IMG/VR virus record: IMGVR_UViG_3300017706_001468
Span: 1-31,726 of that record
Direction: 5' to 3' (one strand)
DNA: 31,726 bases
Source: a virus
Shown: piece by piece, positions 502-29,579 of the stretch
Numbering within the stretch: position 1 is the first letter of the stretch
How the letters are laid out: each line of letters starts with the position of its first letter
Position numbers and translations under genes: made by a program
The notes under the pieces: model-generated
Database searches by the model: none
What the model was told of the DNA's origin: nothing
Seen by the model: the letters and a program-made list of their open reading frames with translations, nothing else

Positions 502-1152
502 ATGGTCTCTATTCCACAGTATCAGTATAAGATTGATAAATCATCAAAGATAGCAATCTGTGTACCAGTACGAGATCAAGTTACTTCTGTTTTTACATAC
601 AGTCTCGCCATGTTGATGAAACGATGTGGCGAGAAAAATGTAAATGTAACCCTTCATTTTAATATAGGAAGCGAAGTTGCTATGCAACGTCAACAGTTGG
701 TTGACGATATATTAGCCAGCAATCACACCCATATTTTATGGCTAGATAGTGATATGAAATTTCCTTCTGATACGTTAGAGATATTATTAAATCATAATAA
801 ATACATTGTAGCAGGAAATTATTCTACTAGAGTTAAACCACATAGACCGGTGGCCTTTAAAGATCCAAAAAATTTAGATAAAAGAGTTTTTGGTGGAAAA
901 GGATTAGAGGAAGTATATGCAATTGGCAGTGGCCTAATGCTTGTAAATACACAAGTATATAAAAAAATGCCACGTCCATTTTATAGTATAGAATGGAAAG
1001 AAGATTACACTAACTTAGTTGGAGAAGATATTTATTTCTGTAATAAAGCACAAGAATGTGGTTATGAAGTATATGTGGATCACGACTTGAGTAAAAAAGT
1101 TGCACATATAGGAACGAAGGCATATACAATAAAGGACGATTGTTATGATTAA
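502..1152 (+). CDS. GT-A fold glycosyltransferase-like protein
   Basis: This 216 aa protein looks like a single-domain GT-A (family 2-like) glycosyltransferase, which would transfer a sugar from a nucleotide donor. The N-terminal strand (residues 17-25, IAICVPVRD) is typical of the donor-binding half. The sequence LWLDSD gives a DxD-type metal site at Asp82-Ser83-Asp84. Residues 140-150 (AIGSGLMLV) and GEDIYFC (Glu175, Asp176) match the acceptor-side and catalytic-base regions of the fold, and His202 is a plausible third metal ligand. There is no membrane segment. Its start abuts the previous stop and its end overlaps the next gene by 8 bp. Likely substrates are host surface glycan, phage DNA bases or a virion protein; the sequence does not say which. 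Confidence 0.75.
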   Translation: MVSIPQYQYKIDKSSKIAICVPVRDQVTSVFTYSLAMLMKRCGEKNVNVTLHFNIGSEVAMQRQQLVDDILASNHTHILWLDSDMKFPSDTLEILLNHNKYIVAGNYSTRVKPHRPVAFKDPKNLDKRVFGGKGLEEVYAIGSGLMLVNTQVYKKMPRPFYSIEWKEDYTNLVGEDIYFCNKAQECGYEVYVDHDLSKKVAHIGTKAYTIKDDCYD

Positions 1153-2236
1153 TATTTCTAAATCATTTAGAGAATTTAAAGGGCAAAATGTAGTAACGCC
1201 CTGGGATAGATTAAAAAAACATGTATTTGGTAGCTATCCTATAATTACTACAAAATCTAAAGTAAGAGATCCAGATGATCTTGCAAAGTTGGCCTTACAA
1301 TATCAAGGTAAAAGTAAAATGGTATGGGTAGCTGTTGATTACGTTACAATGAGACCAGATTTTCCTTGGCATTATAGACCATCAGATAGAGGACTGAATT
1401 ATATTCACGAGTTTCCTAAATCTATTAAAAGAACCAATAGATCTGTAACTTGGGGAGACTTACAATTAGTACCAACAGATGGTGTTGTATACGGAAAGTA
1501 TAGAAATAAAATTACAGCTAATTATCATGATGCTGACTTTGATGTGTTTATGATTAGTTATCATGAAGAAGAAGCAGATAGAAATTTTCAACTTCTTAAA
1601 CAAAGATTTCCAGATGCAAAACACGTTAAAAATGTAGAAGGTATTGGCAATGCCCACAAGGAATGTGCAAAACAATCAGCAACAGAAATGGTATATATTG
1701 TTGATGCGGATGCAGATATTATGGGAGATTTTCACTTTGATTATGTTCCGCCAATGGCCAAACGTATTAACACAACATATGTATGGAGTGCTAGAAATCC
1801 AATAAATGGTCTAGAATATGGATATGGTGGTATTAAATTATTTCCAAGAGAGCAATTATTAGAAATGGGTCATATTTTACCAGACTTTACCGCAGGTGTA
1901 TCTTTTTATCAACCTGTTAGTAATGTATCAAATGTCACAAGGTTTAATAAAGATCCATATAGAACCTGGCGTAGTGCATTCCGTGAATGTGTAAAACTGT
2001 CAAGTGGAATTCAACAAAGCGAAACTCCTAAGCAAGAAACAATAGATAGACTTGAAACATGGACCACAGTTGATACTGGCGAACGTTTTGGCCGCTATTG
2101 TATTAAGGGTGCATTAGAAGGAAAAGCATATGGTGAAGAACATGCAGATGATGTTGAAGCACTAAACAAAATTAATGATTTTGAATGGTTGCGTGAACAA
2201 TTTGTTGCAAGTATGAAAAAACGTATTACACCTTAA
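1145..2236 (+). CDS. Glycosyltransferase-like protein with DADAD motif
   Basis: This 363 aa protein overlaps the preceding glycosyltransferase by 8 bp, so translation is probably coupled. The central part reads like a GT-A domain: a strand with FDVFMISYHEEEADRN (from about residue 132), then GIGNAHKECAKQSATEMVYIVDADAD, whose DADAD lies at 187-191. Such a run is the usual nucleotide-sugar metal site. The N-terminal 120 residues and the C-terminal 140 do not resemble anything I can name. There is no membrane segment. Its stop shares the palindrome TTAA with the stop of the convergent Nudix gene. It probably works with the neighbouring glycosyltransferase on a common glycan; the fold call is inference from motifs. 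Confidence 0.6.
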   Translation: MINISKSFREFKGQNVVTPWDRLKKHVFGSYPIITTKSKVRDPDDLAKLALQYQGKSKMVWVAVDYVTMRPDFPWHYRPSDRGLNYIHEFPKSIKRTNRSVTWGDLQLVPTDGVVYGKYRNKITANYHDADFDVFMISYHEEEADRNFQLLKQRFPDAKHVKNVEGIGNAHKECAKQSATEMVYIVDADADIMGDFHFDYVPPMAKRINTTYVWSARNPINGLEYGYGGIKLFPREQLLEMGHILPDFTAGVSFYQPVSNVSNVTRFNKDPYRTWRSAFRECVKLSSGIQQSETPKQETIDRLETWTTVDTGERFGRYCIKGALEGKAYGEEHADDVEALNKINDFEWLREQFVASMKKRITP

Positions 2237-2692: not shown

Positions 2693-4048
2693 TTATAGAT
2701 ATAATCTCCAATAACCTGGATTGTAAACACCCTCAAAACTATTTACCCATTCTTTACCATTCCATTCTAATTGATCTCCACTTGATGTATTTGTAACATA
2801 TTGTGGTGTTGAGTTAGTATGATCAAAACTTACAATCCAATTAGCACCATTATATTCTATAATATCATTTTTATAAGCAACTGCTTGGCTCCAAGATGTA
2901 CTTTCTGGAATATCATTTAATAGTAGATATCTTTGTCCTTGTGTTGGTAGAGGAACATTACCATCTCCAGGATAACTTGATTGTGGACTTAAAACACCAT
3001 TTATTGCAGTAAGTGTATTAGTTGGCAATGTTGCAGGGTCAATATCTACCAGCAACGCATTTGTATTATTTGGATCTAAATCTAATCTTCCTATTATGTC
3101 ATTGTCTTTATTACCTGGATTATTATCTTTTCTTAAACGTATTTGACTAATTCCAGGTCTTAAAGTATTGAAATTTTCTAAATCAACTTCCCAATTTAAG
3201 TTTCCGCCATTTTCTAAATCTTGGCTTGTCCCTAACTGGTTTAATAGATATGCCTTGTTATTTTCAAATTTAAGTTTTCTGTCTTCATATGTTACTATTG
3301 TATATTCCAATGTTGTTTTGTCAAATAGTTGTTTTGATTCGAATAAATCTAAGTTCTCATCATCCAAATTATATAGTTCGTTTATTATAGTGTGAATAAG
3401 TTTTTGTTGTTTTAATTTTGCTGGTGGATTAATAAAAATTGGTAATGCAAAGGTTATATTACTTACATCTATAATATCATCAATACTTGATCCAACTGCT
3501 CTACTACTCCAAGTAGTATTTGTCATTTCTACATGGCTCAATGCGCTCCAATCTACTGGATTGCTTGATGTCCTAACATCAAGTGTAGGATTGAATAGTA
3601 CTAGTATTTGTTCTAATAGTTGTAATTTTTGATCTGTATTTGATGTCCAAATATCACAGCTCATTGTAAGATTATAAGGAACTGGTGCGTGTCGTTCTAC
3701 AGTATATCTACTGCCTACATCGTCTAAAGTTTCGCCTGTAGTCTCATCTATCTTTTTTTCAAATACATTTATTTTGTCTACATGATCTTGATAAGTTCTA
3801 CGTTCAGGTAACATACTCAAATCTGTAACATAGCAACTAATAAAAGGAACACTATTTACAACGTTCTCAGAATTTTCTCTTGTAATATGTGCAGCCATAC
3901 GATTAATGTCACCATATCGTACAGGTACTTTTTGGAATATAGGAAGTCCTGTATCATCTGTACCCATCTGTACATTGAATCCACTAAACAATCTTATAAA
4001 CTGTTGAATATATCTTCTTATTTGTTTGTCATAAAAATATTGGGTCAT
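2693..4048 (-). CDS. 15: gp15-like tail sheath stabiliser / tail terminator
   Basis: This is probably the hexameric protein that caps the tail tube and sheath and joins the tail to the neck. Residues 1-210 follow T4 gp15 in order: the aromatic start YFYDKQIRRY, KVPVRYG, a VPFISCYVTDLS strand, YNLTMSCDIWT, LQLLEQILVLFNP, and FALPIFINPP, which corresponds to T4 WSLTFEVNGWMYPP. At 451 aa it is far longer than T4 gp15 (272 aa). The extra C-terminal part is Asn/Asp-rich and ends in a small module (about 366-451) with two repeats of a G-x-W-x pattern, similar to modules in gp14 and gp18 here. The start ATG overlaps the gp14 stop (ATGA), so the two are translationally coupled. Confidence 0.8.
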   Translation of the reverse strand: MTQYFYDKQIRRYIQQFIRLFSGFNVQMGTDDTGLPIFQKVPVRYGDINRMAAHITRENSENVVNSVPFISCYVTDLSMLPERRTYQDHVDKINVFEKKIDETTGETLDDVGSRYTVERHAPVPYNLTMSCDIWTSNTDQKLQLLEQILVLFNPTLDVRTSSNPVDWSALSHVEMTNTTWSSRAVGSSIDDIIDVSNITFALPIFINPPAKLKQQKLIHTIINELYNLDDENLDLFESKQLFDKTTLEYTIVTYEDRKLKFENNKAYLLNQLGTSQDLENGGNLNWEVDLENFNTLRPGISQIRLRKDNNPGNKDNDIIGRLDLDPNNTNALLVDIDPATLPTNTLTAINGVLSPQSSYPGDGNVPLPTQGQRYLLLNDIPESTSWSQAVAYKNDIIEYNGANWIVSFDHTNSTPQYVTNTSSGDQLEWNGKEWVNSFEGVYNPGYWRLYL

Positions 4049-7569: not shown

Positions 7570-7782
7570 ATGGAAGTAGGTATTTTAAACAAACCAATAC
7601 AACATATTTCGGTAGTTATATGCTGTTTTGCAATAATTGGTATGATTGCGTTTAGTATTAATACAATTCTTAATATGCCACATGTTAATTGGGATATAAA
7701 CGGAAATTGTATAGAAGTGATTAGTCCTGATCCATCGCATAGTTGCCAAAACCTTCCACGCAAATACACTAGCACCGGATAA
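7570..7782 (+). CDS. Small single-span membrane protein with Cys pair
   Basis: This 70 aa protein has one hydrophobic segment (about residues 12-33, ISVVICCFAIIGMIAFSI) and a 35-residue polar tail with GNCIEV and HSCQNLPRKY. The two tail cysteines, spaced about 13 apart, could form a disulfide if the tail is periplasmic. Similar small proteins with a C-x-x-V...C-x-x-L-P-x-K-Y tail recur, from memory, in marine T4-type phages without known function. It starts 3 bases after the previous stop. A holin or spanin-like role is conceivable but there is no supporting neighbour. Confidence 0.65.
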   Translation: MEVGILNKPIQHISVVICCFAIIGMIAFSINTILNMPHVNWDINGNCIEVISPDPSHSCQNLPRKYTSTG

Positions 7783-7786
7783 TATT

Positions 7787-8071
7787 GTGATATTAGATCA
7801 ACATGCTGCAGAATTATTTGTAGAAAATAAAAACATGATGGTTCCATATTATCTTATGGCATCATATGCATATTATAAAGAAGATGACCCTATTTTTAGC
7901 GATGCCTTTTTTGATGAAATGGGCAAGACTATGATAGAAATTTGGGACGATATAGAGCATTTTCATAAGCATCTTATAAGTAAAGGGGACTTAGTTGCAG
8001 GCTCATATTTGGGAGATTACCCAGAGCGTGTAAAAGGTGGTTTGGAAAGTTTAAGAAAAGAAAAGGCTTGA
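7787..8071 (+). CDS. Hypothetical protein, 94 aa, GTG start
   Basis: I do not recognise this protein. It is acidic and probably all-helical (LFVENKNMMVPYYLMASYAYY, then IEIWDDIEHFHKHLI), with a Tyr-rich middle and no membrane span. The likely start is GTG at 7787, four bases after the upstream stop. The first ATG in frame would cut the protein by about 16 residues, so the start is uncertain. Its stop codon overlaps the TTGACA box of the next promoter (8068-8073). Confidence 0.6.
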   Translation: MILDQHAAELFVENKNMMVPYYLMASYAYYKEDDPIFSDAFFDEMGKTMIEIWDDIEHFHKHLISKGDLVAGSYLGDYPERVKGGLESLRKEKA

Positions 8072-8096
8072 CATACTCTATTTTAGGTATTAGTAT
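8068..8096 (+). promoter_or_regulatory. sigma70-type promoter for the 8123 gene
   Basis: TTGACA (8068-8073), 17 bp, TAGTAT (8091-8096). The -35 box overlaps the stop of the preceding gene. The gene at 8123 has TAGGAG as ribosome binding site. Confidence 0.75.
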
Positions 8097-8122
8097 GGCA
8101 ATATAACAGATAGGAGTTAGTT

Positions 8123-9394
8123 ATGGCAGCACCAAAACGTAAAAAAACAACATCGCCACGTCGTGGTAATAAAAAAATTATGGCACCTAGTTTTGACAAT
8201 TGGGAAAAATTAGACGGTGTCGAATTTCATCGGTTAAAGATGTCTGTAAATGATTTCTATTATAGGAACTTTAAGCATACTGATACTATTGAATGGTGCT
8301 TTCAATGGATGCGTGAAAATGAATATACTAAACAGGATATTCAGAGTGCTAAAAAAGCAATTAAACATGAGCAAGTACTTGGTGTAAGATGTAAAATGCT
8401 ATTAGACGGTTGTCCTGATTTCAATCAAAAAGAAGATGATTATTGGCAATCATGTGCAGGCACTGGTGGTAGTATCACGCCTATGACAGAATGGATTATT
8501 TCTAAAATTGATACAGCTATTGATATTGGTAAAGATATTATAGAAGAAAAAAAGGTTGAGGATAGTAAGAAGAAAAATGTATATGTTCCTTCAATTAAAG
8601 AACGATTGCAAGATACATGCGGAGGCATGACTGAGTCTATTGAAGAATTTGTAGACGACTTTTGCAGAAATCCAGATAAAACACTCCTTAAGAAGTTTGA
8701 ACCTATAAACATCTTGCGTAAATTAAATGCAAAGCCAGGGCATGCACGTATCATTCGAAATTGGTATATTGCAGAGCTTAATGAATATGTTGAACTACTC
8801 AATCCTCCAACACCTGCACAAAAGAAAAAAATGACAGAGAAGGAATTGGACTTTTTAGATCAACTTAAAGAAGGTTACAGTCATCTGTCTAAAGCAGAAG
8901 CTAAATTATTTTTAGAAATGTTTCAAAAGATTGTATCAGCTTGTGATATTATTGAGAAAGAAGCAAAAATTACACGTAAGCCTCGCAAAGTAAAAATTAA
9001 GAGTCCTGAAGATATTACAAAAAATGTAAAGTTTAAACTTAGCGATGCAACTTACGGTATTGCAAGTGTTCCACCAGCCAAGCTAATAGGAGCAAATATT
9101 GCAGTAGTGTTTAATTGTAAAACTCGTAAATTAGGAATGTATTATGCAAGTAGTGTAGATCCTAAAGGGTTAGGTCGTCCAGGAAGTGGATTTAATGTAA
9201 AAGGTACTACTATACTAGGATTTGACGAAAATAGAAGTATACAACGTACTATACGTAAGCCCAACGAGTTCTTACCAACAATTAAGAAGTCATCACGTGC
9301 TAAGACAGAGAAAATGTTTGCTACTATCAAAACTACTGAAACAAAAATGAATGGTAGGTTAAATAACGATATAGTAATTATGGCGGTATTTTAG
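8123..9394 (+). CDS. Hypothetical basic protein, 423 aa
   Basis: No function recognised. The N-terminus is strongly basic (KRKKTTSPRRGNKK), suggesting nucleic acid contact. The middle (about 55-290) is helical and charged, with several Cys and Trp residues. The C-terminal part from about 305 (FKLSDATYGIASVPPAKLIGA) looks beta-rich and ends with repeated Arg/Lys. There is no membrane span or Walker motif. Start ATG follows TAGGAG behind a good promoter. From memory, proteins of this kind recur in marine T4-type phages as hypothetical proteins; DNA binding or a head-internal role are options I cannot distinguish. Confidence 0.7.
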   Translation: MAAPKRKKTTSPRRGNKKIMAPSFDNWEKLDGVEFHRLKMSVNDFYYRNFKHTDTIEWCFQWMRENEYTKQDIQSAKKAIKHEQVLGVRCKMLLDGCPDFNQKEDDYWQSCAGTGGSITPMTEWIISKIDTAIDIGKDIIEEKKVEDSKKKNVYVPSIKERLQDTCGGMTESIEEFVDDFCRNPDKTLLKKFEPINILRKLNAKPGHARIIRNWYIAELNEYVELLNPPTPAQKKKMTEKELDFLDQLKEGYSHLSKAEAKLFLEMFQKIVSACDIIEKEAKITRKPRKVKIKSPEDITKNVKFKLSDATYGIASVPPAKLIGANIAVVFNCKTRKLGMYYASSVDPKGLGRPGSGFNVKGTTILGFDENRSIQRTIRKPNEFLPTIKKSSRAKTEKMFATIKTTETKMNGRLNNDIVIMAVF

Positions 9395-11456: not shown

Positions 11457-13808
11457 ATGGCAAATCTTGTCTCGCCTGGCGTCCAGGTAACAGTAACAGA
11501 CGAATCAGTATATGGCCCAGCTGGCGCCGGTACTGTACCAATGCTTTTTATTGCTACAGGCCAGGATAAAATTGATCCTACAGGTACAGAAGCAGATGGC
11601 ATTGCGAAATTTACAAAATCAACAAATGCAGGCAAACCAGTCCTTGTAACATCACAAAGAGAACTAACACAGTACTTCGGTAACTGTGATTTCCGTACAG
11701 TTAGTGGAACAGTACAACAGGGTGATGAAACAAACGATTACGGTTTATTAGCTGCATATTCTTTTCTAGGCCAAAGTGCAGGTGCATACATTGTACGTGC
11801 AAATGTAGATCTAGGAGCATTAAGACCACTTTCAGCAGAACCAACAGGTCCTGCAGCAAATGGAACTTATTGGCTAAACCCTTCAGCAAGTAATTGGGGT
11901 ATGTTCCAATATACAGCAACTGGTTGGGTTGCAGTAACACCAACAGTAGAAATAACAGATGGTTCAGCACCATCAGCGGCAGTAGTTACAGATGGATATC
12001 TAGTAGCAATTGCAGCGGCATCAGGGTCAACAGGAATTGAATACTATAAAGAAGCTAGTGGTTCATGGACAGCTGAAACGCCTACATTTGCACCGCATTA
12101 TAGTGAACCAGCATCACCAAGTGTGGGTGATATTTGGGTTAAAACAACAAAACCAGGTAGTGGTGTAAGTATAAGCATTGCTGAAAATATGGCTGGTATA
12201 TTTGTTGCACACCCAATTAACTATGCAATGGCAACAGATCCAGCAGGTACAACATCAGATACATTCCAAGATGGTACAGCGTCTATAGCACGTACATTAC
12301 AAGACGGTGATTTAACATTAGAAATTGAAGCATCAAAACTTGTTCTAAAATCATATGAATCAGGTGCTTGGGGAAACCTAACAATTGTAGCTCAAACAGC
12401 AGAACCAACAGGTGCCGCAACAGATGGCACAATGTGGTTTGACCCAGATTTAAATCAACTAGCAATTTACGAAGTTGGTACAGATAGTGGCGTACAAAAA
12501 TGGAAGCGTGTAACAAATGTTACGTATGCTACAGCAGCACCAAGTGCAGGCAATGCAGGCAACTATTGGGTAGATACAGACGCTAACGGATATCCTGTAA
12601 TTTACAGAGATAACGGTAGTGCATGGGTACTAAAAGATAATACAGATCAAACAACATCAGGCGGTGTTGTGTTTGGTGATATTACAGCAAATGATACATC
12701 AGCAGGTGTATTTGAATCTGCATTACTAGCAGGTGCACCAAATCCTCTACTACACCCAGTTGGTACAACAGGTATTAACATGTGTCGTTCAGGCGGTACA
12801 GTACGTATGTATGATTCAAGCCTAGGCACAGCATGGAAATGGCGTAACCACGCAGGAAACCAAGCTAGTGGCGCAGGTTCTTTTGGACGTCATGCTCAGC
12901 GTAGAGTAGTAGTAACAGCGATGCAAGCAAGTGCAACAGGATCAGAACTACGTGAAGATACAGTTAACTTCCGTTTAATTGCAGCTCCAGGTTATCCAGA
13001 ACTAATGGATGAAATGGTAGCACTAAACAGTGATAGAGATGAAACAGCATTTATTATTGTTGACTCGCCACTACGTATGAATCCAACAGATGCAGTATCC
13101 TGGATCCAAGGCAACGGCGCAGTTGAAAATGGCGAAGATGGACTAGTAACAAAGAACACATATGCAGCAGCATATTATCCAAGTTCACTAGCTACTGACC
13201 CAGTATCAGGCAACAGCGTAGTAGCACCAGCATCACACATAGCATTATACACATTCGCATATAATGATAATGTAAGTTTTCAGTGGTTTGCACCAGCAGG
13301 CCTAACACGTGGTGTAGTACAAAACGCAGCAAACGTAGGCTACTTAAATGCAGAAGATGAATTTGTACCAGTAGCATTAACACAAGGTTCTCGTGATGCT
13401 ATGTATGAAAAGAAACTTAACCCAATTGCAAACTTCCCAACAGATGGTGTGGTTGTATTTGGCCAAAAGTCTCTACATGCAGGAGCAAGCGCACTTGACC
13501 GTGTAAACGTTGCTCGTTTAACAGCATATCTAAGAGAACGTTTTGCAGTTATTGCAAGACCATTCTTATTTGAAGCTAATGACGAAACAACACGTGCAAA
13601 TGCTAAATCAACTTTTGAAGGTTTCCTAGCAAACATTCTTAAGCAACGTGGTATTTACGATTTTGCAGTAGTGTGTGATGTAACTAACAACACACCTGCA
13701 AGAGTTGATGCAAATGAGTTTTATGTAGATGTAGCAATTGAGCCTACAAAATCTGCAGAATTTATTTACATACCAATTCGTATTGTTAACACAGGCGAAT
13801 TAGCATAA
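11457..13808 (+). CDS. 18: Tail sheath protein gp18
   Basis: This 783 aa protein is the contractile tail sheath subunit. The N-terminus (MANLVSPGVQVTVTDESVYGP) and the C-terminus (FANILKQRGIYDFAVVCD, FIYIPIRIVNT) carry the conserved sheath core that makes the handshake between rings. From about 475 to the end it follows T4 gp18. It is longer than T4 gp18 (659 aa). The excess is between about 120 and 400, where four to five copies of a small Gly/Trp/Tyr module are inserted: near 126-160, 216-235, 312-352 and 358-394. Each has P-x-x-G-x-x-W or -Y followed by a Y...W strand. These probably decorate the outer tail surface. AAGGAG precedes the ATG, and a terminator follows at 13832. Confidence 0.95.
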   Translation: MANLVSPGVQVTVTDESVYGPAGAGTVPMLFIATGQDKIDPTGTEADGIAKFTKSTNAGKPVLVTSQRELTQYFGNCDFRTVSGTVQQGDETNDYGLLAAYSFLGQSAGAYIVRANVDLGALRPLSAEPTGPAANGTYWLNPSASNWGMFQYTATGWVAVTPTVEITDGSAPSAAVVTDGYLVAIAAASGSTGIEYYKEASGSWTAETPTFAPHYSEPASPSVGDIWVKTTKPGSGVSISIAENMAGIFVAHPINYAMATDPAGTTSDTFQDGTASIARTLQDGDLTLEIEASKLVLKSYESGAWGNLTIVAQTAEPTGAATDGTMWFDPDLNQLAIYEVGTDSGVQKWKRVTNVTYATAAPSAGNAGNYWVDTDANGYPVIYRDNGSAWVLKDNTDQTTSGGVVFGDITANDTSAGVFESALLAGAPNPLLHPVGTTGINMCRSGGTVRMYDSSLGTAWKWRNHAGNQASGAGSFGRHAQRRVVVTAMQASATGSELREDTVNFRLIAAPGYPELMDEMVALNSDRDETAFIIVDSPLRMNPTDAVSWIQGNGAVENGEDGLVTKNTYAAAYYPSSLATDPVSGNSVVAPASHIALYTFAYNDNVSFQWFAPAGLTRGVVQNAANVGYLNAEDEFVPVALTQGSRDAMYEKKLNPIANFPTDGVVVFGQKSLHAGASALDRVNVARLTAYLRERFAVIARPFLFEANDETTRANAKSTFEGFLANILKQRGIYDFAVVCDVTNNTPARVDANEFYVDVAIEPTKSAEFIYIPIRIVNTGELA

Positions 13809-22852: not shown

Positions 22853-23108
22853 TGGTGATTTAGAATTTGTATTTGCATTATATGATAGTGCAAAAGTTAT
22901 TATGGCTGAAAAAGATCGTCCTACTTGGGCTGAAGAAGTTGTTCGCCACTTAGTTGACTTTGGTATCGATGTAAAGCAATGTGCCCCTGATCTAAGTGAC
23001 CATTGTGAATTAATTGAAGCGGCAATTGCTGAGTATTTGGAAGTAGAAAACGAAGATATTGACCTGTATGGTGAATATAATGAAGATGACGAAGAATATG
23101 AATACTAA
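22842..23108 (+). CDS. Hypothetical acidic protein, 88 aa
   Basis: I do not recognise this protein. It is strongly acidic, helical in the first 65 residues (DLEFVFALYDSAKVIMAE, WAEEVVRHLVDFGIDV) and ends in a run of Asp, Glu and Tyr. There is no membrane segment. It overlaps UvsX by 11 bp and the next gene by one base, so it is translated as part of the uvsX operon. It may be a partner of UvsX or the following protein. Confidence 0.65.
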   Translation: MLNDGDLEFVFALYDSAKVIMAEKDRPTWAEEVVRHLVDFGIDVKQCAPDLSDHCELIEAAIAEYLEVENEDIDLYGEYNEDDEEYEY

Positions 23109-23566
23109 TGAGTATATGGTATAATAAAGTAGCACGTAATTTGGGGGAGATAGTTTCGGCCGTCTCTCACTTTGAACGTGAGCTCGATCAAGCAAGATTA
23201 GAAACTTCTATGAAAGGCGTTGTTGAAAAACATAGTCGAGATATGCCAGGTATTGTTGAACATCGTTTCAACCAATTACAAGAAGTAGAAGCAATATTAG
23301 AACATCTTAATACTGAAATGCGAAAACTACGAAGCAAGACTTTTCGTAAATTCCTAGAGAGTTACAATAGAGCTTTAAGTAGCCGTGATGCAGAAAAGTT
23401 TGTTGATGGAGAAGATGAAGTTGTTGATATGCAGTATCTTATTAACGAATTTAGTTTAGTGCGTAATAGATATATTGGTATAATTAAAGCATTAGAAGCA
23501 AAACAATTTCAAATAAACAACATTGTGAAATTAAGAGCCGCAGGTTTAGAAGATATTTCACTATAA
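23108..23566 (+). CDS. Helical protein, possible UvsY analogue
   Basis: This 152 aa protein directly follows UvsX and is a helical, charged protein recurring, from memory, after uvsX in marine T4-type phages. The sequence FNQLQEVEAILEHLNTEMRKLRSKTFRKFLESYNRALSSRDAEKFVDGEDEVV is consistent with a coiled helical core. Its end, VRNRYIGIIKALEAKQFQINNIVKLRAAG, resembles the end of T4 UvsY (YWGILLDFCSGALDAIKSRGFAIKHIQDMRAF) in spacing and in the aromatic and Arg positions. UvsY (137 aa) loads UvsX on gp32-coated DNA. Position and length fit, but identity is low and the equivalence is my inference. Confidence 0.6.
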   Translation: MSIWYNKVARNLGEIVSAVSHFERELDQARLETSMKGVVEKHSRDMPGIVEHRFNQLQEVEAILEHLNTEMRKLRSKTFRKFLESYNRALSSRDAEKFVDGEDEVVDMQYLINEFSLVRNRYIGIIKALEAKQFQINNIVKLRAAGLEDISL

Positions 23567-23623: not shown

Positions 23624-23652
23624 TTGACACCAAGACGTTTTGGTGCTATATT
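23624..23652 (+). promoter_or_regulatory. sigma70-type promoter, cassette 2
   Basis: TTGACA (23624-23629), 17 bp, TATATT (23647-23652), followed by GTATAAGTTAAA as in the other cassettes. It drives the small genes from 23688. Confidence 0.85.
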
Positions 23653-23945: not shown

Positions 23946-24202
23946 TGCAGATTAAAGGCGCAATGACTGTTTTAAATAAACGTTGTGATTTTTATGGTTG
24001 GACATTTGATCAACTGATCGCTAAATTAGATGAAGGCTTTGATGAAAACTATACTGTTCTTACAGCATATGAAGTTTATAAAATGCATAATGGTTATGTA
24101 TGGTGTGGCCTTAACGGCGTTGGGTGGACTACACCTGAAAAGAGCCGTGAAGAAAGCAATGTTTATCATGGTTATGGACACCAGTTAGAGTTGGATCTGT
24201 AA
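23945..24202 (+). CDS. Hypothetical protein, 85 aa
   Basis: I do not recognise this protein. It is small, soluble and rich in aromatic residues (DFYGWTFDQLI, GYVWCGLNGVGWTT), with an N-terminal helix and an acidic end. It starts with TAATG overlapping the previous gene (GGAGAAG before it) and ends with TAATG overlapping the next. Co-translation with both neighbours is likely. Confidence 0.65.
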   Translation: MQIKGAMTVLNKRCDFYGWTFDQLIAKLDEGFDENYTVLTAYEVYKMHNGYVWCGLNGVGWTTPEKSREESNVYHGYGHQLELDL

Positions 24203-24888
24203 TGTTTGATAACTATACAGTTTTAGATGCCCTTGCATTTGCTATAGAAATACACGAACAGCAAGGTTTTGTAAAAAGCGGCCACGGTTCTGTGCGTATA
24301 GCTGATGATGGTAAAACTGAAATACGTACCTTTGATAACAAGACATGTATTTTAGAAAAAATTAAATCAGAAAAAATCCCTGAATCAAAATATATGGATC
24401 AAGCAAAAGAAATGCTTGATCGTATCAATGGCAAACTCATGCTTAAAAAACTTACTAGTAGTTCAAATAGTTTTGAGAATTCTCTTATTAAGGCATTAAA
24501 TGAAGATTTAAACAAATTTGCTGTTAGTTTAATTGCAAGTATGCCTAATAGTATTGTAATTGATAAAAAACGTGAAGTATTAAACGACAAAATGTCTAAA
24601 ATTAAACATACAAGCCAGTATTTTGGTAAAAAAGGTATTCGTTATGATATTGATGTAGATGTTTTGGATGTAAAATATATACAATCAAGTGATGTTTATA
24701 TGATTACTACTGTTTATAATAACGAAAACATTATCAAGTTTTGGTGGAGAGAGCAGCCAGATATTAGTGATATAATAAATGATAAAACAATTACTATTCG
24801 TGGAACAGTTAAAGCTCATGAGCTAAGTAAATTTTCTGGTGCTAAAGAAACTTTAATTAATAGGGTTAAAATTACTAACACTAAATAG
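24202..24888 (+). CDS. Hypothetical protein with OB-like end
   Basis: No firm assignment (228 aa). The N-terminal 90 residues are helical and charged (VLDALAFAIEIHEQQGFV at the start). The C-terminal part is beta-rich and ends with TITIRGTVKAHELSKFSGAKETLINRVKI. This resembles an end segment (GTVK-x-H ... KET or KQT-x-x-x-RVK) seen in several phage DNA-replication-associated proteins of OB-like appearance. The gene shares bases with its upstream neighbour (TAATG), and its last codons contain the CTAAATA box used by the next gene. Nucleic acid binding is a guess. Confidence 0.6.
   Translation: MFDNYTVLDALAFAIEIHEQQGFVKSGHGSVRIADDGKTEIRTFDNKTCILEKIKSEKIPESKYMDQAKEMLDRINGKLMLKKLTSSSNSFENSLIKALNEDLNKFAVSLIASMPNSIVIDKKREVLNDKMSKIKHTSQYFGKKGIRYDIDVDVLDVKYIQSSDVYMITTVYNNENIIKFWWREQPDISDIINDKTITIRGTVKAHELSKFSGAKETLINRVKITNTK
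24880..24887 (+). promoter_or_regulatory. Late-type promoter ACTAAATA, leaderless radical SAM gene
   Basis: ACTAAATA followed by exactly 5 bases (GTTTT) and ATG at 24893. The box overlaps the stop codon of the preceding gene, which weakens it a little, but spacing equals that at gp17 and at 26982. Confidence 0.55.
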
Positions 24889-24892
24889 TTTT

Positions 24893-25963
24893 ATGAATGC
24901 ATGGAATAAACTCGATAAGATAGAAATAGAACTAAGCGGCGATTGTAACGCCGCTTGTCCTTTATGTCCTAGGACAGAGGCAAACTCTCCTTTAAAAGGT
25001 AACGGGAACCACACACTAGAAGATGTTAAAAGATCTTTTGGACATCTTGTGCCAAAATTTCAAGAAGTAGACTTTGAGATAGCATTATATGGATTGGGTG
25101 GAGATCCTATACTTAACCCAGAGTGCTATGAAATTACAAAATGGTTTACTGAAAATGGCGCATATGTAATTATTAGTACTAACGGTGGATATAATAATGC
25201 AGAGTGGTGGACAAAACTTGGACAACTTGATAACCTTACTGTAAAGTGGGCTATTGATGGTGCAGAAAAAACAAATCATCTATATAGAATTAATGTAGTA
25301 TGGGATATTGTAATTCGAAATTTGACAGCATTTACACAAGCAGGAGGAAAAGCATCTTGGGTGTTTATTCCTTTTGACCATAATATGGATGAGTTTGAAA
25401 CTGCAAAAAATATTGCAATTAGTTTGGGTGTAGATTTTGAATCTAAAACAAGTGGGCGTAATGCAGACCATGAGAGTAAAAATGAATCTGTACAGGTAAA
25501 CAAATTAAAGAAAAAAGAAAAACCCCAAACTAGAAAATATAAGCAAAGTAAAACTATACCACATAGGGATATTAGCAAACTTCAAGAAATAAGAAAAAAT
25601 TTAGAAAATTTAGAAGATAATTTAGATTATGATGAAACACTAATAAAAGATGCAGTAGATTCTATAGAATGTAAAGCACTTAATGTTCCTGAGTTATATG
25701 TAAGTGCAGATCAAAAATTATATCCTTGTTGTTTTCTTCATGACACTGAATCATTTAAAAAGAAAAAATGGGATCCTAGTATGGAAGATGATTGGAACGA
25801 TCTAAAATTGCATAGTATGGATTCTATATTACAAAAATCTCCCTTTACAGAATTAAAAGCAAGGATGCATCCAGATCATCCTAATTTTGTAAGAAGATGT
25901 TTGCATCAGTGTGCAGATAAAAATAGTCATCGCACAATAATTAAAAAAATATTTGAAAAATAA
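24893..25963 (+). CDS. Radical SAM protein with SPASM-like C-terminus
   Basis: This 356 aa protein has the radical SAM cluster motif CNAACPLC (Cys18, Cys22, Cys25), which binds a 4Fe-4S cluster and cleaves S-adenosylmethionine. LYGLGGDPILNPEC (from about 66) is the usual GGEP-like region, here GGDP, and ISTNGGY follows. The C-terminal part has ECKALNVPELYVSADQKLYPCCFLHD and later RRCLHQC, which resembles a SPASM or twitch domain with extra cluster cysteines. A basic, low-complexity insert lies near 195-235. The substrate is unknown; SPASM enzymes often modify peptides or proteins. No Shine-Dalgarno precedes the ATG and no precursor peptide gene is visible beside it. Confidence 0.85.
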   Translation: MNAWNKLDKIEIELSGDCNAACPLCPRTEANSPLKGNGNHTLEDVKRSFGHLVPKFQEVDFEIALYGLGGDPILNPECYEITKWFTENGAYVIISTNGGYNNAEWWTKLGQLDNLTVKWAIDGAEKTNHLYRINVVWDIVIRNLTAFTQAGGKASWVFIPFDHNMDEFETAKNIAISLGVDFESKTSGRNADHESKNESVQVNKLKKKEKPQTRKYKQSKTIPHRDISKLQEIRKNLENLEDNLDYDETLIKDAVDSIECKALNVPELYVSADQKLYPCCFLHDTESFKKKKWDPSMEDDWNDLKLHSMDSILQKSPFTELKARMHPDHPNFVRRCLHQCADKNSHRTIIKKIFEK

Positions 25964-26007: not shown

Positions 26008-26036
26008 TTGACAACCAATGCGTCTTGCTGTAATGT
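26008..26036 (+). promoter_or_regulatory. sigma70-type promoter, cassette 3
   Basis: TTGACA (26008-26013), 17 bp, TAATGT (26031-26036), followed by ATAAGAGTAAGTTAAAA exactly as in cassette 1. TTGACAACCAAT is also shared with cassette 1. It drives the AAA+ gene at 26069. Confidence 0.75.
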
Positions 26037-26068
26037 ATAAGAGTAAGTTAAAACAAAAGGATAGATAT

Positions 26069-26932
26069 ATGCCAACAGCAATGCAGCTAAAGAAAACTCG
26101 TGTAAAAAAAGCTACTAAAATTTTAGAAGTAGTAAATGATGCAGTTGACAATCCAAATGAAACAGATGAGCAAATCATCGAACGTATGCGTGAACGTTTT
26201 AGTATCTTAGATGATATGACACAAGCATCAATTGATGGTGTTGTACGTGGTATGGTTGTTACTGGACCTCCAGGTGTAGGTAAATCATTTGGTGTAGAAC
26301 AAGTACTAGAAAAGAATAGTTTGTTTGACAAACTAGCAGGCAACAAGATGCGGTTTGAGGTTATCAAAGGTGCTAGTTCTGCTATTGGGTTATACAAGGT
26401 ACTATTTCAGAATGCAGATAAGAATAACGTGCTTGTGCTAGATGATTGTGATACTGTACTGTATGACGAAACATCACTTAACCTGCTTAAAGCGGCACTT
26501 GACTCAAGTAAAAAACGTAAGATTAGTTGGAATACTGATAGTGCATTGTTACGCCGTGAAGGTATTCCAGATACTTTTGAATTTAAGGGTTCAGTTATTT
26601 TTATTACTAACCTTAAGTTTGACAAGGTGCGTGGTAAAATTAAAGACCACTTAGATGCTATTATGTCACGTTGCCATTACTTGGATCTTACAATGGATAC
26701 TACACGTGAAAAGGTATTACGTTGTAAGCAAATTGTTAAAGATGGTATGCTTAATGAGTATCAATTTACCAAAGCTGAAGAAGCAGAGCTAATGAGCTTT
26801 ATGATTGATAACAAAGAAAAATTTCGTGAGATTAGTTTGCGTATGGTTACTAAACTTGCAGATCTTAAAAAGAGTTTTGGCAGTCAAAAGTGGAAGCGAA
26901 CTGCTGAAGTTACATGTATGCGGCGAGTGTAA
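26069..26932 (+). CDS. AAA+ ATPase
   Basis: This 287 aa protein is a single-domain AAA+ ATPase. Walker A is GPPGVGKS (66-73), Walker B VLVLDDCD (121-128), and VIFITN near 176-181 is sensor 1. EVIKGASSAIGLYKVLF follows Walker A where a DNA-like substrate pore or initiator segment would be. The start ATG at 26069 follows AAAGGAT; an upstream in-frame start overlaps the promoter and is rejected. The N-terminal 60 residues are helical with a basic start. Proteins of this kind recur in T4-type marine phages without a known target; it is not gp44 or gp41 by motif. A terminator follows. Confidence 0.85.
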   Translation: MPTAMQLKKTRVKKATKILEVVNDAVDNPNETDEQIIERMRERFSILDDMTQASIDGVVRGMVVTGPPGVGKSFGVEQVLEKNSLFDKLAGNKMRFEVIKGASSAIGLYKVLFQNADKNNVLVLDDCDTVLYDETSLNLLKAALDSSKKRKISWNTDSALLRREGIPDTFEFKGSVIFITNLKFDKVRGKIKDHLDAIMSRCHYLDLTMDTTREKVLRCKQIVKDGMLNEYQFTKAEEAELMSFMIDNKEKFREISLRMVTKLADLKKSFGSQKWKRTAEVTCMRRV

Positions 26933-26994: not shown

Positions 26995-27753
26995 ATGAAA
27001 AATGGATTATTTACTTATGGTTGCAGTCATACTTTTGGGTATGGACTACCAGACACAAAGCAAGAGGTAAAAGTACCCTCAGAAACTAATTTTAACAAAA
27101 AAACTTTCAAAAATTTTGGTAGTACTAAAAATTGGGGACAACACATAGCGAACAAATGGGACTTAGAATATTATAACTTTGGAGTAAGTGGAGCAAACAA
27201 TAGAGAAATATTTCATTGGACAAATGAATGTGTAAAGCATAATATGATTCAAAAAACAGATAAGGTTATCTTTTTCTGGAATAATTTTGGATCTAGGTGG
27301 TCAATTTTTAAAGATCCTAGTGTTCCATTTGAAAATACGTTATTAGAAAACCAATACCCACAGGGCTTACCAGCAATCCGTATGTTCTTGCATGATCCAA
27401 AGAAGACCTACGACAAATGGTTTGAAGTGTACCATTCAGCATCAGAAGCAGAAGTAGCAAATTGGCATTATATACATTACACAAATCTTCTAATAGAAAA
27501 AATAGGAATAACTCCTATTAATTTTTTTACAGAGCCTCCTTGGACATATCCAAACGAAGAATTCAGGCATGAATCTGTTACTAAAAATTATTTCAGAGAC
27601 CAACTAAAATATGCATGCCCTATTTTGTTTTTAGATAGAAATATTCCATTTTTAGATCTTGCATCTGATAATTCGCATGCAGGACCAATACAACATAGAA
27701 AATGGGCAAAGATGATGTTACGATGGTTAGATCAAGTAGGATATGAATTGTAA
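26995..27753 (+). CDS. SGNH/GDSL-type hydrolase-like protein
   Basis: This 252 aa protein has the SGNH hydrolase blocks in order: block I GCSHTFG (Ser11 as nucleophile, GCSH instead of GDS), block II NFGVSGANN (Gly66), block III FFWNNFGS (Asn96 or Asn97), block V DNSH (Asp225, His228). These give esterases or acyl hydrolases acting on carbohydrate or lipid esters. There is no signal peptide, so the enzyme is cytoplasmic or virion-associated. The ATG has no Shine-Dalgarno, but block I starts only 9 residues later, so this start is needed. The stop overlaps the next gene (TAATG). A role in altering surface glycans or O-acetyl groups is inferred. Confidence 0.75.
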   Translation: MKNGLFTYGCSHTFGYGLPDTKQEVKVPSETNFNKKTFKNFGSTKNWGQHIANKWDLEYYNFGVSGANNREIFHWTNECVKHNMIQKTDKVIFFWNNFGSRWSIFKDPSVPFENTLLENQYPQGLPAIRMFLHDPKKTYDKWFEVYHSASEAEVANWHYIHYTNLLIEKIGITPINFFTEPPWTYPNEEFRHESVTKNYFRDQLKYACPILFLDRNIPFLDLASDNSHAGPIQHRKWAKMMLRWLDQVGYEL

Positions 27754-28088
27754 TGGAATTTATAATTAAAGCTATATTGGGTGGATTAATTGTAGCAGGA
27801 GTTGTGACAGCAGCTCAGCGTGGTAATCCTACAATTGGTGCATTGATACTTGGTATACCGTTAGGTACAATTATTAGTTTAATTTTCATGTATTACAGTG
27901 GAGTTGAGACCTCAGTATTTCAACAGTTAGCAAAAGAAACTATATATTTTGTTCTTGTTAGTTTGATATTTTTTCCTGTGTTTGTTTATGGTTTGTACTA
28001 TTTTCATTTTTGGATATCGCTGGGTAGTGCAATCGCAGTAACAATGGCATGTTTATTATTACTAAAGTTTTACATTGAAAACTCATAA
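27753..28088 (+). CDS. GlpM-like (DUF3147-type) membrane protein
   Basis: This 111 aa protein has four hydrophobic segments (about 3-20, 28-48, 62-83, 87-107). Pattern and length match E. coli GlpM (109 aa): a start of the type xxIKAxLGxLxV, then IGALILGIPLGTIISL in place of the GlpM IAGLIPLFPTFALIA, and a third span with IFFPVFVYGLYYF like IPYFVYLVSLWYF. GlpM's own role is unclear. Translation is coupled to the SGNH-like gene by TAATG. A phage copy suggests a role at the host inner membrane. The family call is by eye and should be taken as likely, not certain. Confidence 0.65.
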   Translation: MEFIIKAILGGLIVAGVVTAAQRGNPTIGALILGIPLGTIISLIFMYYSGVETSVFQQLAKETIYFVLVSLIFFPVFVYGLYYFHFWISLGSAIAVTMACLLLLKFYIENS

Positions 28089-28092
28089 CTAA

Positions 28093-28121
28093 TTGACATT
28101 TTTAGTATTCTGTTGTATATT
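28093..28121 (+). promoter_or_regulatory. sigma70-type promoter, leaderless uvsW
   Basis: TTGACA (28093-28098), 17 bp, TATATT (28116-28121). The ATG at 28128 lies 6 bases after the -10 box, where transcription should start. Confidence 0.8.
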
Positions 28122-28127
28122 AAGTAT

Positions 28128-29579
28128 ATGAAATGTAAACTTATTATTAAAGATGAAGTAAACTGTAAGTTCGAAGGTATCGATCTCAATACTCGTAAAA
28201 AAATGGAAAAAGAACTAAAGTTCTTTATGCCGTATGCCTATCATGTTCCTGCATACAAGCTAGGAAGATGGGATGGATGTGTGAGCTATTTTAGTATTGG
28301 AGGCGCAACATATCTGAACCTGTTAGACCGTCTATTGCCAATTATTGTAAATGCAAACTATCAAGTTGATATTTTAGATCAACGTAACGATTGGGATTTA
28401 AAATTTAATTTAGTTGACGAAACTACATTCCAACATAAAGTATGGCCTGAAAAGCATCCGGTTGCAGGACAACCTGTAACATTGCGTGACTATCAGATTG
28501 AAATTGTAAACAAGTATTTAGAAACTCCGCATTGTTTACAAGAAATCGCAACTGGTGCAGGTAAGACACTGGTAACTGCTGCACTTAGTGAACGGGTGGA
28601 AAAGTATGGCAGGTCAATTGTAATTGTGCCTAACAAAGATTTGGTTAGACAAACATTTGAGGATTATGAAAATTTAGGTCTTGATGTAGGAGTTTATTTT
28701 GGTGACAAAAAAGATATAGGAAAAACCCATACTATTTGTACCTGGCAAAGTTTAAACAGTATTAAGAAACGGTTCAGAGATGGCCTTGATGAAATGTCCT
28801 TGCAAGACTTTGTAGAGGATGTAGTATGTGTAATAGTAGACGAAGTACACCAAGCTAAAGCAGATGTATTGAAAGATTTACTTACTAAAGAATTTAATCA
28901 TATACCATTACGTTGGGGATTAACTGGCACAATACCAAAAGCAGATCATGAATTTGTTAGCCTTCAAGCATGTCTGGGTGAAGTAGTAAATCGACTTAGT
29001 GCAAAGACATTACAGGAAGAAGGTGTGTTAAGTCAATGCCACGTTAATGTAGTACAAATGAAAGAAATTACAGAGTACAATAACTATCAAAGTGAGTTGT
29101 CATACTTAACAACAAATAAGCCCAGAATTGAGTATGTGAGCGAATTAATTAAAAAGATATCGCTTAGTGGAAATACACTTGTACTTGTAGACAGAATTAA
29201 AGGTGGGCAAATGATATGTGATAATATTCCAAATGCTCAGTTTGTTAGTGGAGAAATGAAAAGTATAGATAGAAAGGATGCATATGATGATATCAATGAA
29301 GGAACTAATCAAGTGGTTGTCGCAACCTACGGAGTGGCTGCCGTGGGTATTAACATTCCTCGCATTTTTAACTTGGTTCTTTTGGAGCCTGGCAAGTCCT
29401 TTGTAAGAGTAATACAGAGTATTGGTAGAGGAATACGTAAAGCAGAAGATAAAGACAGTGTAGAAATATGGGATATAACCAGCACTGCAAAATTTAGTAA
29501 AAAGCATTTAACAGAACGGAAAAAGTTTTATAAAGAGGCAAATTATCCGTTTACTATAGAAAAGGTAGACTGGCAGTGA
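28128..29579 (+). CDS. uvsW: UvsW-type DNA/RNA helicase
   Basis: This 483 aa superfamily 2 helicase unwinds branched DNA and R-loops and helps the switch from origin- to recombination-driven replication. Motif I is ATGAGKT (141-147), motif II DEVH (238-241), motif III LTGTIP (from about 269) and motif VI QSIGRGIRK. The N-terminal 110 residues carry the UvsW-specific domain (GRWDGCVSYF near 46-55). Length is close to T4 UvsW (503 aa, longer C-terminus). The start is ATG at 28128; a TTG five codons upstream overlaps the promoter. No Shine-Dalgarno is present. The stop overlaps the next start (GTGA). Confidence 0.93.
   Translation: MKCKLIIKDEVNCKFEGIDLNTRKKMEKELKFFMPYAYHVPAYKLGRWDGCVSYFSIGGATYLNLLDRLLPIIVNANYQVDILDQRNDWDLKFNLVDETTFQHKVWPEKHPVAGQPVTLRDYQIEIVNKYLETPHCLQEIATGAGKTLVTAALSERVEKYGRSIVIVPNKDLVRQTFEDYENLGLDVGVYFGDKKDIGKTHTICTWQSLNSIKKRFRDGLDEMSLQDFVEDVVCVIVDEVHQAKADVLKDLLTKEFNHIPLRWGLTGTIPKADHEFVSLQACLGEVVNRLSAKTLQEEGVLSQCHVNVVQMKEITEYNNYQSELSYLTTNKPRIEYVSELIKKISLSGNTLVLVDRIKGGQMICDNIPNAQFVSGEMKSIDRKDAYDDINEGTNQVVVATYGVAAVGINIPRIFNLVLLEPGKSFVRVIQSIGRGIRKAEDKDSVEIWDITSTAKFSKKHLTERKKFYKEANYPFTIEKVDWQ

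Follow-up and report, generated by a model that had tools for sequence, protein, structure and literature searches.

The question raised by this locus is what a radical SAM enzyme does when its gene lies by itself among the recombination genes of a phage, and on which target it acts. The window, that is, the whole stretch of DNA analysed, spans 31,726 nucleotides and corresponds to a 31.7-kb virus contig classed as linear. Its sheath, tube, terminase, gp32, UvsX, UvsY and UvsW genes identify a myovirus, and its UvsX shares 66% identity with the proteins of the jumbo phages Atu_ph07 and Phosso and 65–66% with that of GAP32; these sequence comparisons relate the virus to jumbo myoviruses. The answer to which we give an even chance is that the product, P0001, is a twitch-type radical SAM (rSAM) enzyme performing one step of a phage-specified tailoring pathway, perhaps with a glycan-type target. 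Two genes matching tail sheath families were observed in the window, one at 2693–4048 on the minus strand (phrog_11196, 1.4e-98) and a long one of 783 aa at 11457–13808 on the plus strand (phrog_10581, 8.3e-197).

Homologs of terminase, UvsX and UvsY were found in the compared regions of Atu_ph07, Phosso and GAP32, and a gp32 homolog in two of these three (not Phosso). For OB30, the rSAM gene and AAA32, no homolog was found in the same regions at E < 0.01. The features surrounding the rSAM gene are as follows.

23108–23566, plus strand: UvsY-like recombination mediator (phrog_231, 1.5e-17), bounding the variable region on the left.
23624–23652, plus strand: sigma-70-like promoter match (11/12), ahead of a four-gene run in which the rSAM gene is last.
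24202–24888, plus strand: OB30, 228 aa, upstream of the rSAM gene; OB-like by visual impression only, with a partial phrog_2319 match (function unknown).
24882–24887, plus strand: TAAATA, resembling a T4 late promoter core by pattern, 5 nt upstream of the rSAM start codon.
24893–25963, plus strand: rSAM gene for P0001 (ATG at 24893, stop at 25961–25963; 356 aa), a predicted radical SAM enzyme with a C-terminal twitch-like domain.
26018–26932, plus strand: AAA32, AAA ATPase (phrog_1250), downstream of the rSAM gene; its true start is probably near 26070.
28113–29579, plus strand: UvsW-like helicase (Pfam and PHROG matches; homologs in Phosso and GAP32), bounding the variable region on the right.

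The rSAM gene begins 4 bases past the OB30 stop. Sigma-70-like consensus matches numbered 9 in the region, compared to 16.5 in shuffled sequences. TAAATA lay at most 30 nt before a start in 7 of 36 cases (0.72 expected), and ATATAA likewise in 7, of 66; exact TATAAATA was rarer than chance (2 found, 6.1 expected), both copies preceding starts. The TAAATA before the rSAM ATG is partly forced because it overlaps the OB30 stop codon, and a late-gene link of the rSAM gene was rejected on these two grounds. A nine-pair hairpin over the CxxxCxxC codons (24933–24957) was kept in L005, L009, L010 and L011 and partly in L015, and was absent from L014, L016 and L021, so that it was dismissed as a general feature. 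At 27753–28088 the window also encodes a GlpM-like protein (22.6 bits, below the Pfam cut-off), a homolog of which lies between OB30 and AAA32 in 6 of 80 loci.

The following features were located within the rSAM gene.

24944–24967, plus strand: CxxxCxxC codons, C18–C25, for the SAM-binding 4Fe-4S cluster predicted from the sequence (Cys in 93/93 rows).
25463–25570, plus strand: basic stretch by charge count, codons 191–226, in the linker between barrel and C-terminal domain.
25670–25912, plus strand: putative twitch-like domain, codons 260–340, with C260, C279, C280, C336 and C340, placed by alignment and by the structural neighbours BlsE, SkfB and BtrN.

A preliminary description of this DNA had proposed a radical SAM protein with a CxxxCxxC motif at residues 18–25 and a Cys-rich C-terminus, and the analyses bore this out. 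P0001 matched Pfam Radical_SAM (PF04055) at 5.8e-7 and 30.3 bits, barely exceeding the cut-off of 29.5, and its predicted fold and invariant Cys residues agree with that identity. Residues 18, 22 and 25 of the motif were confirmed as Cys and, together with C260, C279 and C280, were invariant in all 93 rows of the family alignment, while C336 and C340 were each kept in 92 rows with one gap; this Cys conservation exceeds chance. The same description had named clear orthology to a known enzyme of nucleotide or cofactor modification as evidence against its reading; no such orthology was found, and none of the 21 NCBIfam models matching P0001 at E ≤ 1 reached its cut-off. Searched against PDB sequences, the family profile scored best with NifB, a cofactor-building enzyme (6.9e-7), over positions 5–99 only, in the common radical SAM core. 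P0001 is almost certainly a radical SAM enzyme of the twitch-like class, and it probably cleaves SAM reductively, the activity predicted for it.

The C-terminal end had been described as SPASM-like, which held for the presence of an auxiliary-cluster domain and was not supported for a full SPASM domain with several clusters. No match to Pfam SPASM (PF13186) was found at E ≤ 0.1, and P0001 has five C-terminal Cys where the SPASM pattern has seven. Exactly five Cys follow residue 240 in 31 of the 33 orthologs and six in the other two. The twitch motif consists of C-x(9-15)-G-x4-C followed by a distal CxxC or CxxxC pair. In the P0001 family the spacing of 18 residues between C260 and C279 was found in 33/33 orthologs and 88/93 rows, and C336-x3-C340 (CxxxC) in 33/33 orthologs; C280 is an additional invariant Cys beyond the twitch spacing. 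The position of the motif glycine is occupied by Q in the window protein and by G in 49/93 rows, and among the 33 orthologs by Q (12), L (11), S (5), F (2), M (2) and G (1). Because C260-x18-C279 and C336-x3-C340 match the twitch Cys spacing, although the motif glycine is missing from the window protein and nearly all orthologs, one auxiliary iron-sulfur cluster of twitch-like type is likely, rather than the two of SPASM.

Structure prediction with AlphaFold2 on the 93 alignment rows gave a confident model (pLDDT 92.3, pTM 0.91; lowest block 201–210, pLDDT 55), a partial TIM barrel that matches solved radical SAM enzymes. Comparison by VIA-align Z placed SuiB on top (Z 19.7, 264 residues, 4.0 Å), followed by BlsE (18.2, 261 residues, 4.3 Å), SkfB (18.1, 254 residues, 3.6 Å), DesII (17.6), anSME (17.2), MoaA (16.7), PqqE (16.4) and BtrN (15.9). 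BlsE, BtrN, SkfB and SuiB (Z 15.9–19.7) share with the P0001 model the barrel followed by an auxiliary-cluster domain, at a sequence identity of 12–18%. The substrates of BlsE, DesII and BtrN are sugars or aminocyclitols. The peptide enzymes SuiB, SkfB and anSME match the P0001 fold as well as or better than the sugar enzymes, which counts against the glycan reading; since Z differences under 1 are ties, the fold is undecisive between peptide and sugar substrates. Among curated families, the closest to P0001 is NF033640 (N_Twi_rSAM), the best NCBIfam match (residues 6–250), yet with 41.3 of the required 170 bits and an alignment that starts at model position 109 of 398. Unlike N_Twi_rSAM, P0001 carries its Cys-rich domain at the C-terminus and has nothing ahead of the barrel.

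An unusual basic insert had also been reported near residues 195–235. A basic segment is real at 191–226 (net +6), whereas the entire linker 191–259 of the window protein is neutral (15 K/R, 15 D/E). The charge of the segment is at least +1 in 33/33 orthologs (median +4) and in 32/60 paralogs (median +1), and because of this difference the segment is regarded as a mark of P0001 and its orthologs, not of the superfamily. It would also suit a nucleic acid or an acidic protein, which is counted against the glycan-type tailoring reading.

The family was assembled from viral sequences. A single-sequence tblastn search of annotated phages returned 4 records, all below 60% identity and each aligned over less than 80% of the query. 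When viral contigs were scanned with profiles, 311 and 177 relatives were confirmed, and 80 were retained from each scan. A gap in scores separated 53 distinct sequences at ≥206 bits (the window and some fragments included) from all others at ≤148 bits, and the sequences above this gap were taken as orthologs. The family alignment (A3) holds 93 of 108 representatives, with all 33 orthologs and 60 paralogs; 15 paralogs were left out by hand without a written rule, and the starts of L016 and L018 were moved inward. In a tree built from all 33 orthologs and 15 paralogs, taken as every fourth row, the paralogs L043 and L052 fell inside the ortholog side (support 91/81, with a long-branch warning), and the ortholog set was for this reason based on the score gap.

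The dN/dS ratios (NG86) of five rSAM pairs ranged from 0.049 to 0.260, including 0.083 for window–L009, 0.149 for window–L010 and 0.260 for window–L014, any dS above 1 being near saturation; these low ratios are beyond chance and indicate purifying selection and a maintained function. Horizontal transfer was rejected on composition, the GC content (0.32) and codon distance (0.294) being within the range of other genes. A profile scan of a bacterial genome collection found 6 distant relatives (24–31% identity). They gave no clue to function, as no shared context was seen around the three of these six loci inspected (L089, L090 and L093), and NF033640 exceeded its cut-off in 0/5 bacterial genomes with relatives and 0/14 controls.

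Two further forms of the gene were observed. In L015, the rSAM gene at 7572–8186 combines a window-type start with an L012-type middle, by recombination or as an assembly chimera. In three phage records, rSAM paralogs are split into a core ORF and an overlapping, separate twitch/SPASM-like ORF:

L259, 1922–2590 with 2577–2897: split rSAM paralog, the second ORF matching Pfam SPASM.
L264, 1059–1739 with 1726–2079: split rSAM paralog.
L169, 8142–8792 with 7859–8155, minus strand: split rSAM paralog.

The occurrence of the gene at the window site was surveyed in the best 80 of 220 AAA32 relatives. OB30 was present in 79 of these loci, in order with AAA32, the remaining locus (L285) being cut on that side. 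An rSAM gene lies between OB30 and AAA32 in 7 of the 79 informative loci, which represent three lineages, the window being a further member of one of them. In the other 72, no rSAM gene was found in the covered part of the UvsY-to-AAA32 interval (in L269, L278 and L309 this part excludes the UvsY side), and 68 of the 72 carry another ORF of at least 40 aa there. The same empty slot was seen in 7 of 12 records with both UvsX and AAA32, a count not independent of the 79-locus survey, and 5 of the 12 have rSAM family matches elsewhere in the record. Other placements were found in L021, where a distant ortholog lies between UvsY and OB30 alongside a second radical SAM gene, a DAO-family oxidoreductase and others, and in L081, where a 28%-identical relative lies between UvsX and UvsY. 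The rSAM gene is accessory in its phage group, and its presence in few relatives together with these other placements indicates that it is cargo. In L263 (1948–2652), L261 and L262, a 234-aa protein like ones in rSAM clusters fills the gap between UvsY and OB30, with no rSAM gene; its family occurs in 9 of the 80 rows of the survey.

The ortholog itself was far more sociable elsewhere. Neighbourhoods were counted at 64 ortholog loci (L104–L167), found through their rSAM gene and holding 40 distinct ortholog sequences; F names denote our own single-linkage clusters, F1 being glycosyltransferase (GT)-like through the window protein w2, F3 PP-loop-like by motif and eye, and F6 fibre-like by eye. 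Another rSAM gene lies at most six genes away in 64/64 loci and immediately before the ortholog in 61, and 52 have at least three further rSAM genes within six genes (median 5). Within the same distance, F1 was found at 55 loci, F4 at 50, F3 at 47, F6 at 23 and F9 at 15, while the carbamoyltransferase F15 was near just 3, a point against the tailoring reading. Four neighbours of the ortholog in L115 exceed the NF033640 cut-off (194–422 bits), P0001 itself being below it. The cluster F4 (e.g., L115, 7539–7763) is a uniform 74-aa protein of unknown family, found at 54 of the loci L104–L167. It was rejected as a universal partner or precursor, being present in 2 of 15 family-holding records and uniform along its length, unlike a precursor; no non-rSAM partner was common to all contexts, which also counts against that reading. 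In L016 (7709–7993, by Pfam) and L017 (same cluster), a zf-CHCC zinc-finger protein directly precedes the rSAM ortholog; this type of phage also has genes for MoxR-like and VWA-metallopeptidase proteins.

At the level of whole records, 12 of the 15 family-holding records searched have at least two rSAM places (A3 or PF04055 matches), and the single-place records G000, G003 and G011 are fragments of 13–32 kb. One gene may count twice in this search; because the PF04055 search missed the window's own gene, the counts are lower bounds. Window-type UvsX and terminase were sought in 16 operon-bearing records and found in G012 alone (198 kb; UvsX 84% and terminase 67% identical to those of the window), where the ortholog lies in an rSAM operon at 134538. 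The rSAM operon is therefore present in the phage group to which the window belongs. The covered stretch of G012 just past UvsY held no rSAM, OB30 or AAA32 homolog, and the other 15 operon-bearing records (41–102 kb) held neither UvsX nor terminase of the window's kind, the latter result speaking against the tailoring reading. A sister contig, G001, carries an rSAM gene 98% identical to that of the window, with four family places (two being halves of one split gene) and five PF04055 places. The contig carries a B12-binding radical SAM ORF (Pfam), with a second look-alike by eye, and a radical SAM protein with an N-terminal SPASM-like (N-twitch-like) domain, its SPASM score below the cut-off; redoxin, methyltransferase and FNR-type oxidoreductase genes were also found. 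The G001 genes indicate that the window gene is alone only locally. The partner genes lie tens of kilobases from the rSAM gene, which again tells against a common pathway. P0001 quite probably belongs to a phage multi-radical-SAM tailoring system.

The link to sugars comes in part from the window itself.

1145–2236, plus strand: w2, with a GT-A-like glycosyltransferase fold in the predicted model; cluster F1, members of which lie near rSAM operons.

The 50 PDB matches listed for the w2 model are, by their titles, glycosyltransferases or contain such a domain (best E 7.5e-6; TM-scores 0.23–0.33, normalised to the whole model). The idea that w2 belongs specifically to the pathway was rejected, since the protein is widespread irrespective of the rSAM gene (207 relatives, of which 80 were kept at 66–100% identity). 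In the cluster locus L102, UDPG_MGDP dehydrogenase and carbamoyltransferase domains were confirmed. The w2 fold and the sugar-type domains of L102 favour a glycan or amino-sugar target. Because the orthologs found mostly lie amid rSAM, GT-like and PP-loop-like genes, a glycan or small-molecule target is at least as likely as a protein; a glycan or amino-sugar as the actual target of P0001 is a tentative assignment, somewhat short of even.

Multi-rSAM phage systems are already known from Campylobacter, marine T4-like and pelagimyophage genomes. The respective papers report 11 and 12 radical SAM proteins in CP220 and CPt10, with an interchangeable module that includes glycine amidinotransferase (PMC2853527), 12 radical SAM genes in one marine T4-like genome (PMC5332604), and pelagimyophage host-recognition clusters that vary by radical SAM cassettes (PMC7029224). 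As annotated, CP220, CPt10 and F379 (Firehammervirus) have clustered rSAM genes with a nucleotide-diphospho-sugar transferase and an amidinotransferase, and they carry P0001 homologs at 25–27% identity. The F35 proteins of the operon loci are 24.5–27.2% identical to the F379 amidinotransferase (best E 1e-34); Pfam found no domain in one of these F35 proteins. The Campylobacter phage rSAM genes are clustered and weakly similar, whereas the window gene stands alone amid recombination-region genes. The accessible text of the marine T4-like and pelagimyophage reports does not name the P0001 subfamily, its operon order or the jumbo-type accessory slot, and a literature search of titles and abstract openings found no published description of the function of the P0001 family. 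New here appear to be the P0001 subfamily with its predicted fold, its place in operons and its accessory slot, and the family is apparently unnamed.

We infer the cluster content, the radical chemistry, the electron supply and the glycan or virion target of P0001 as follows. P0001 would bind SAM at the C18/C22/C25 cluster and generate a 5'-deoxyadenosyl radical, which would take a hydrogen from a substrate positioned close to the auxiliary cluster; this second cluster may anchor the substrate or accept an electron. The reaction would be one C–H tailoring step in a phage-encoded many-enzyme pathway, the remaining enzymes of which would be encoded elsewhere in the same genome, so that no adjacent substrate gene would be needed. 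What it modifies would be a phage-specified group, a glycan, an amino-sugar or something similar, attached to the virion or to the host surface. The gene itself is cargo in a variable slot between two recombination-region genes.

The same evidence was weighed for other functions. The closest folds include SuiB, SkfB and anSME, all of which modify peptides or proteins, and they would fit a maturase acting on a protein of the phage, such as a tail fibre, or of the host, with the basic segment, positive in every ortholog, as the docking site. The preliminary description had likewise named a virion or host protein as the possible target and the insert as a possible docking loop. The F6 genes counted above, fibre-like by eye only, and an aspartyl/asparaginyl hydroxylase domain in the rSAM cluster of the w2-related record L264 are in accordance with such a maturase. 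No precursor peptide was seen beside the gene among ORFs of at least 40 aa in the contexts examined; the absence of an obvious adjacent precursor, noted in the preliminary description, was thereby upheld, and the small upstream ORFs 28 and 29 do not accompany the gene consistently, being absent from L005 and L010–L014, which retain it. F4, missing from 13 of the 15 records, does not resemble one either. An RRE is present in SuiB and SkfB, although not in all maturases, whereas the first strand of the P0001 model lies at residues 9–12, with no RRE-like domain ahead of it, and no NCBIfam peptide-maturase cut-off was reached. We therefore consider protein maturation a minority prospect, unlikely on balance, and the cross-link, epimer or formylglycine-type oxidation proposed as its chemistry is held with equal reserve.

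The position between UvsX/UvsY and UvsW, together with the basic segment, could instead indicate modification of phage DNA or RNA. One of the two PP-loop-like neighbours in L115 gave weak partial matches to TilS, LarE and QueC-like models, all below the cut-off where one exists. The site is not conserved, however, with 72 of 79 relatives lacking the gene there, F1 GT-like genes lie near 55/64 orthologs, and no tRNA- or DNA-modifying radical SAM family exceeded its cut-off, so that a nucleic-acid substrate is improbable. Least probable by far is a viperin-like nucleotide enzyme or a defence or anti-defence factor. The PADLOC pVip match (residues 12–111, E 1.1e-5, 23 bits) is weak and confined to the common radical SAM core, viperins appear among the folds at Z of about 14 with twitch and SPASM enzymes above them, and no viperin model was among the 21 NCBIfam families.

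A broader version of the preferred tailoring reading may be considered, with rather low confidence, in which jumbo-type, other large and Campylobacter phages share one biosynthetic system of up to about 20 rSAM enzymes plus partners, with P0001 as a detachable module. The partners would possibly comprise PP-loop-like, amidinotransferase-like, carbamoyltransferase, aminotransferase and B12-type radical SAM proteins, and P0001 might stand in the operon in some members and alone in others, both parts being as doubtful as the whole. If true, the product of such a system would be novel, either a modification of a surface or a small molecule. The accessible portions of the cited literature offer no answer to why a virus needs at least ten radical SAM enzymes. 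Because the enzyme occurs both in operons and alone, with close relatives empty at the same site, its product should be traceable by comparison. Should P0001 act on a glycan of the virion or of the receptor, its tailoring would add a new layer to the chemistry of phage–host recognition.
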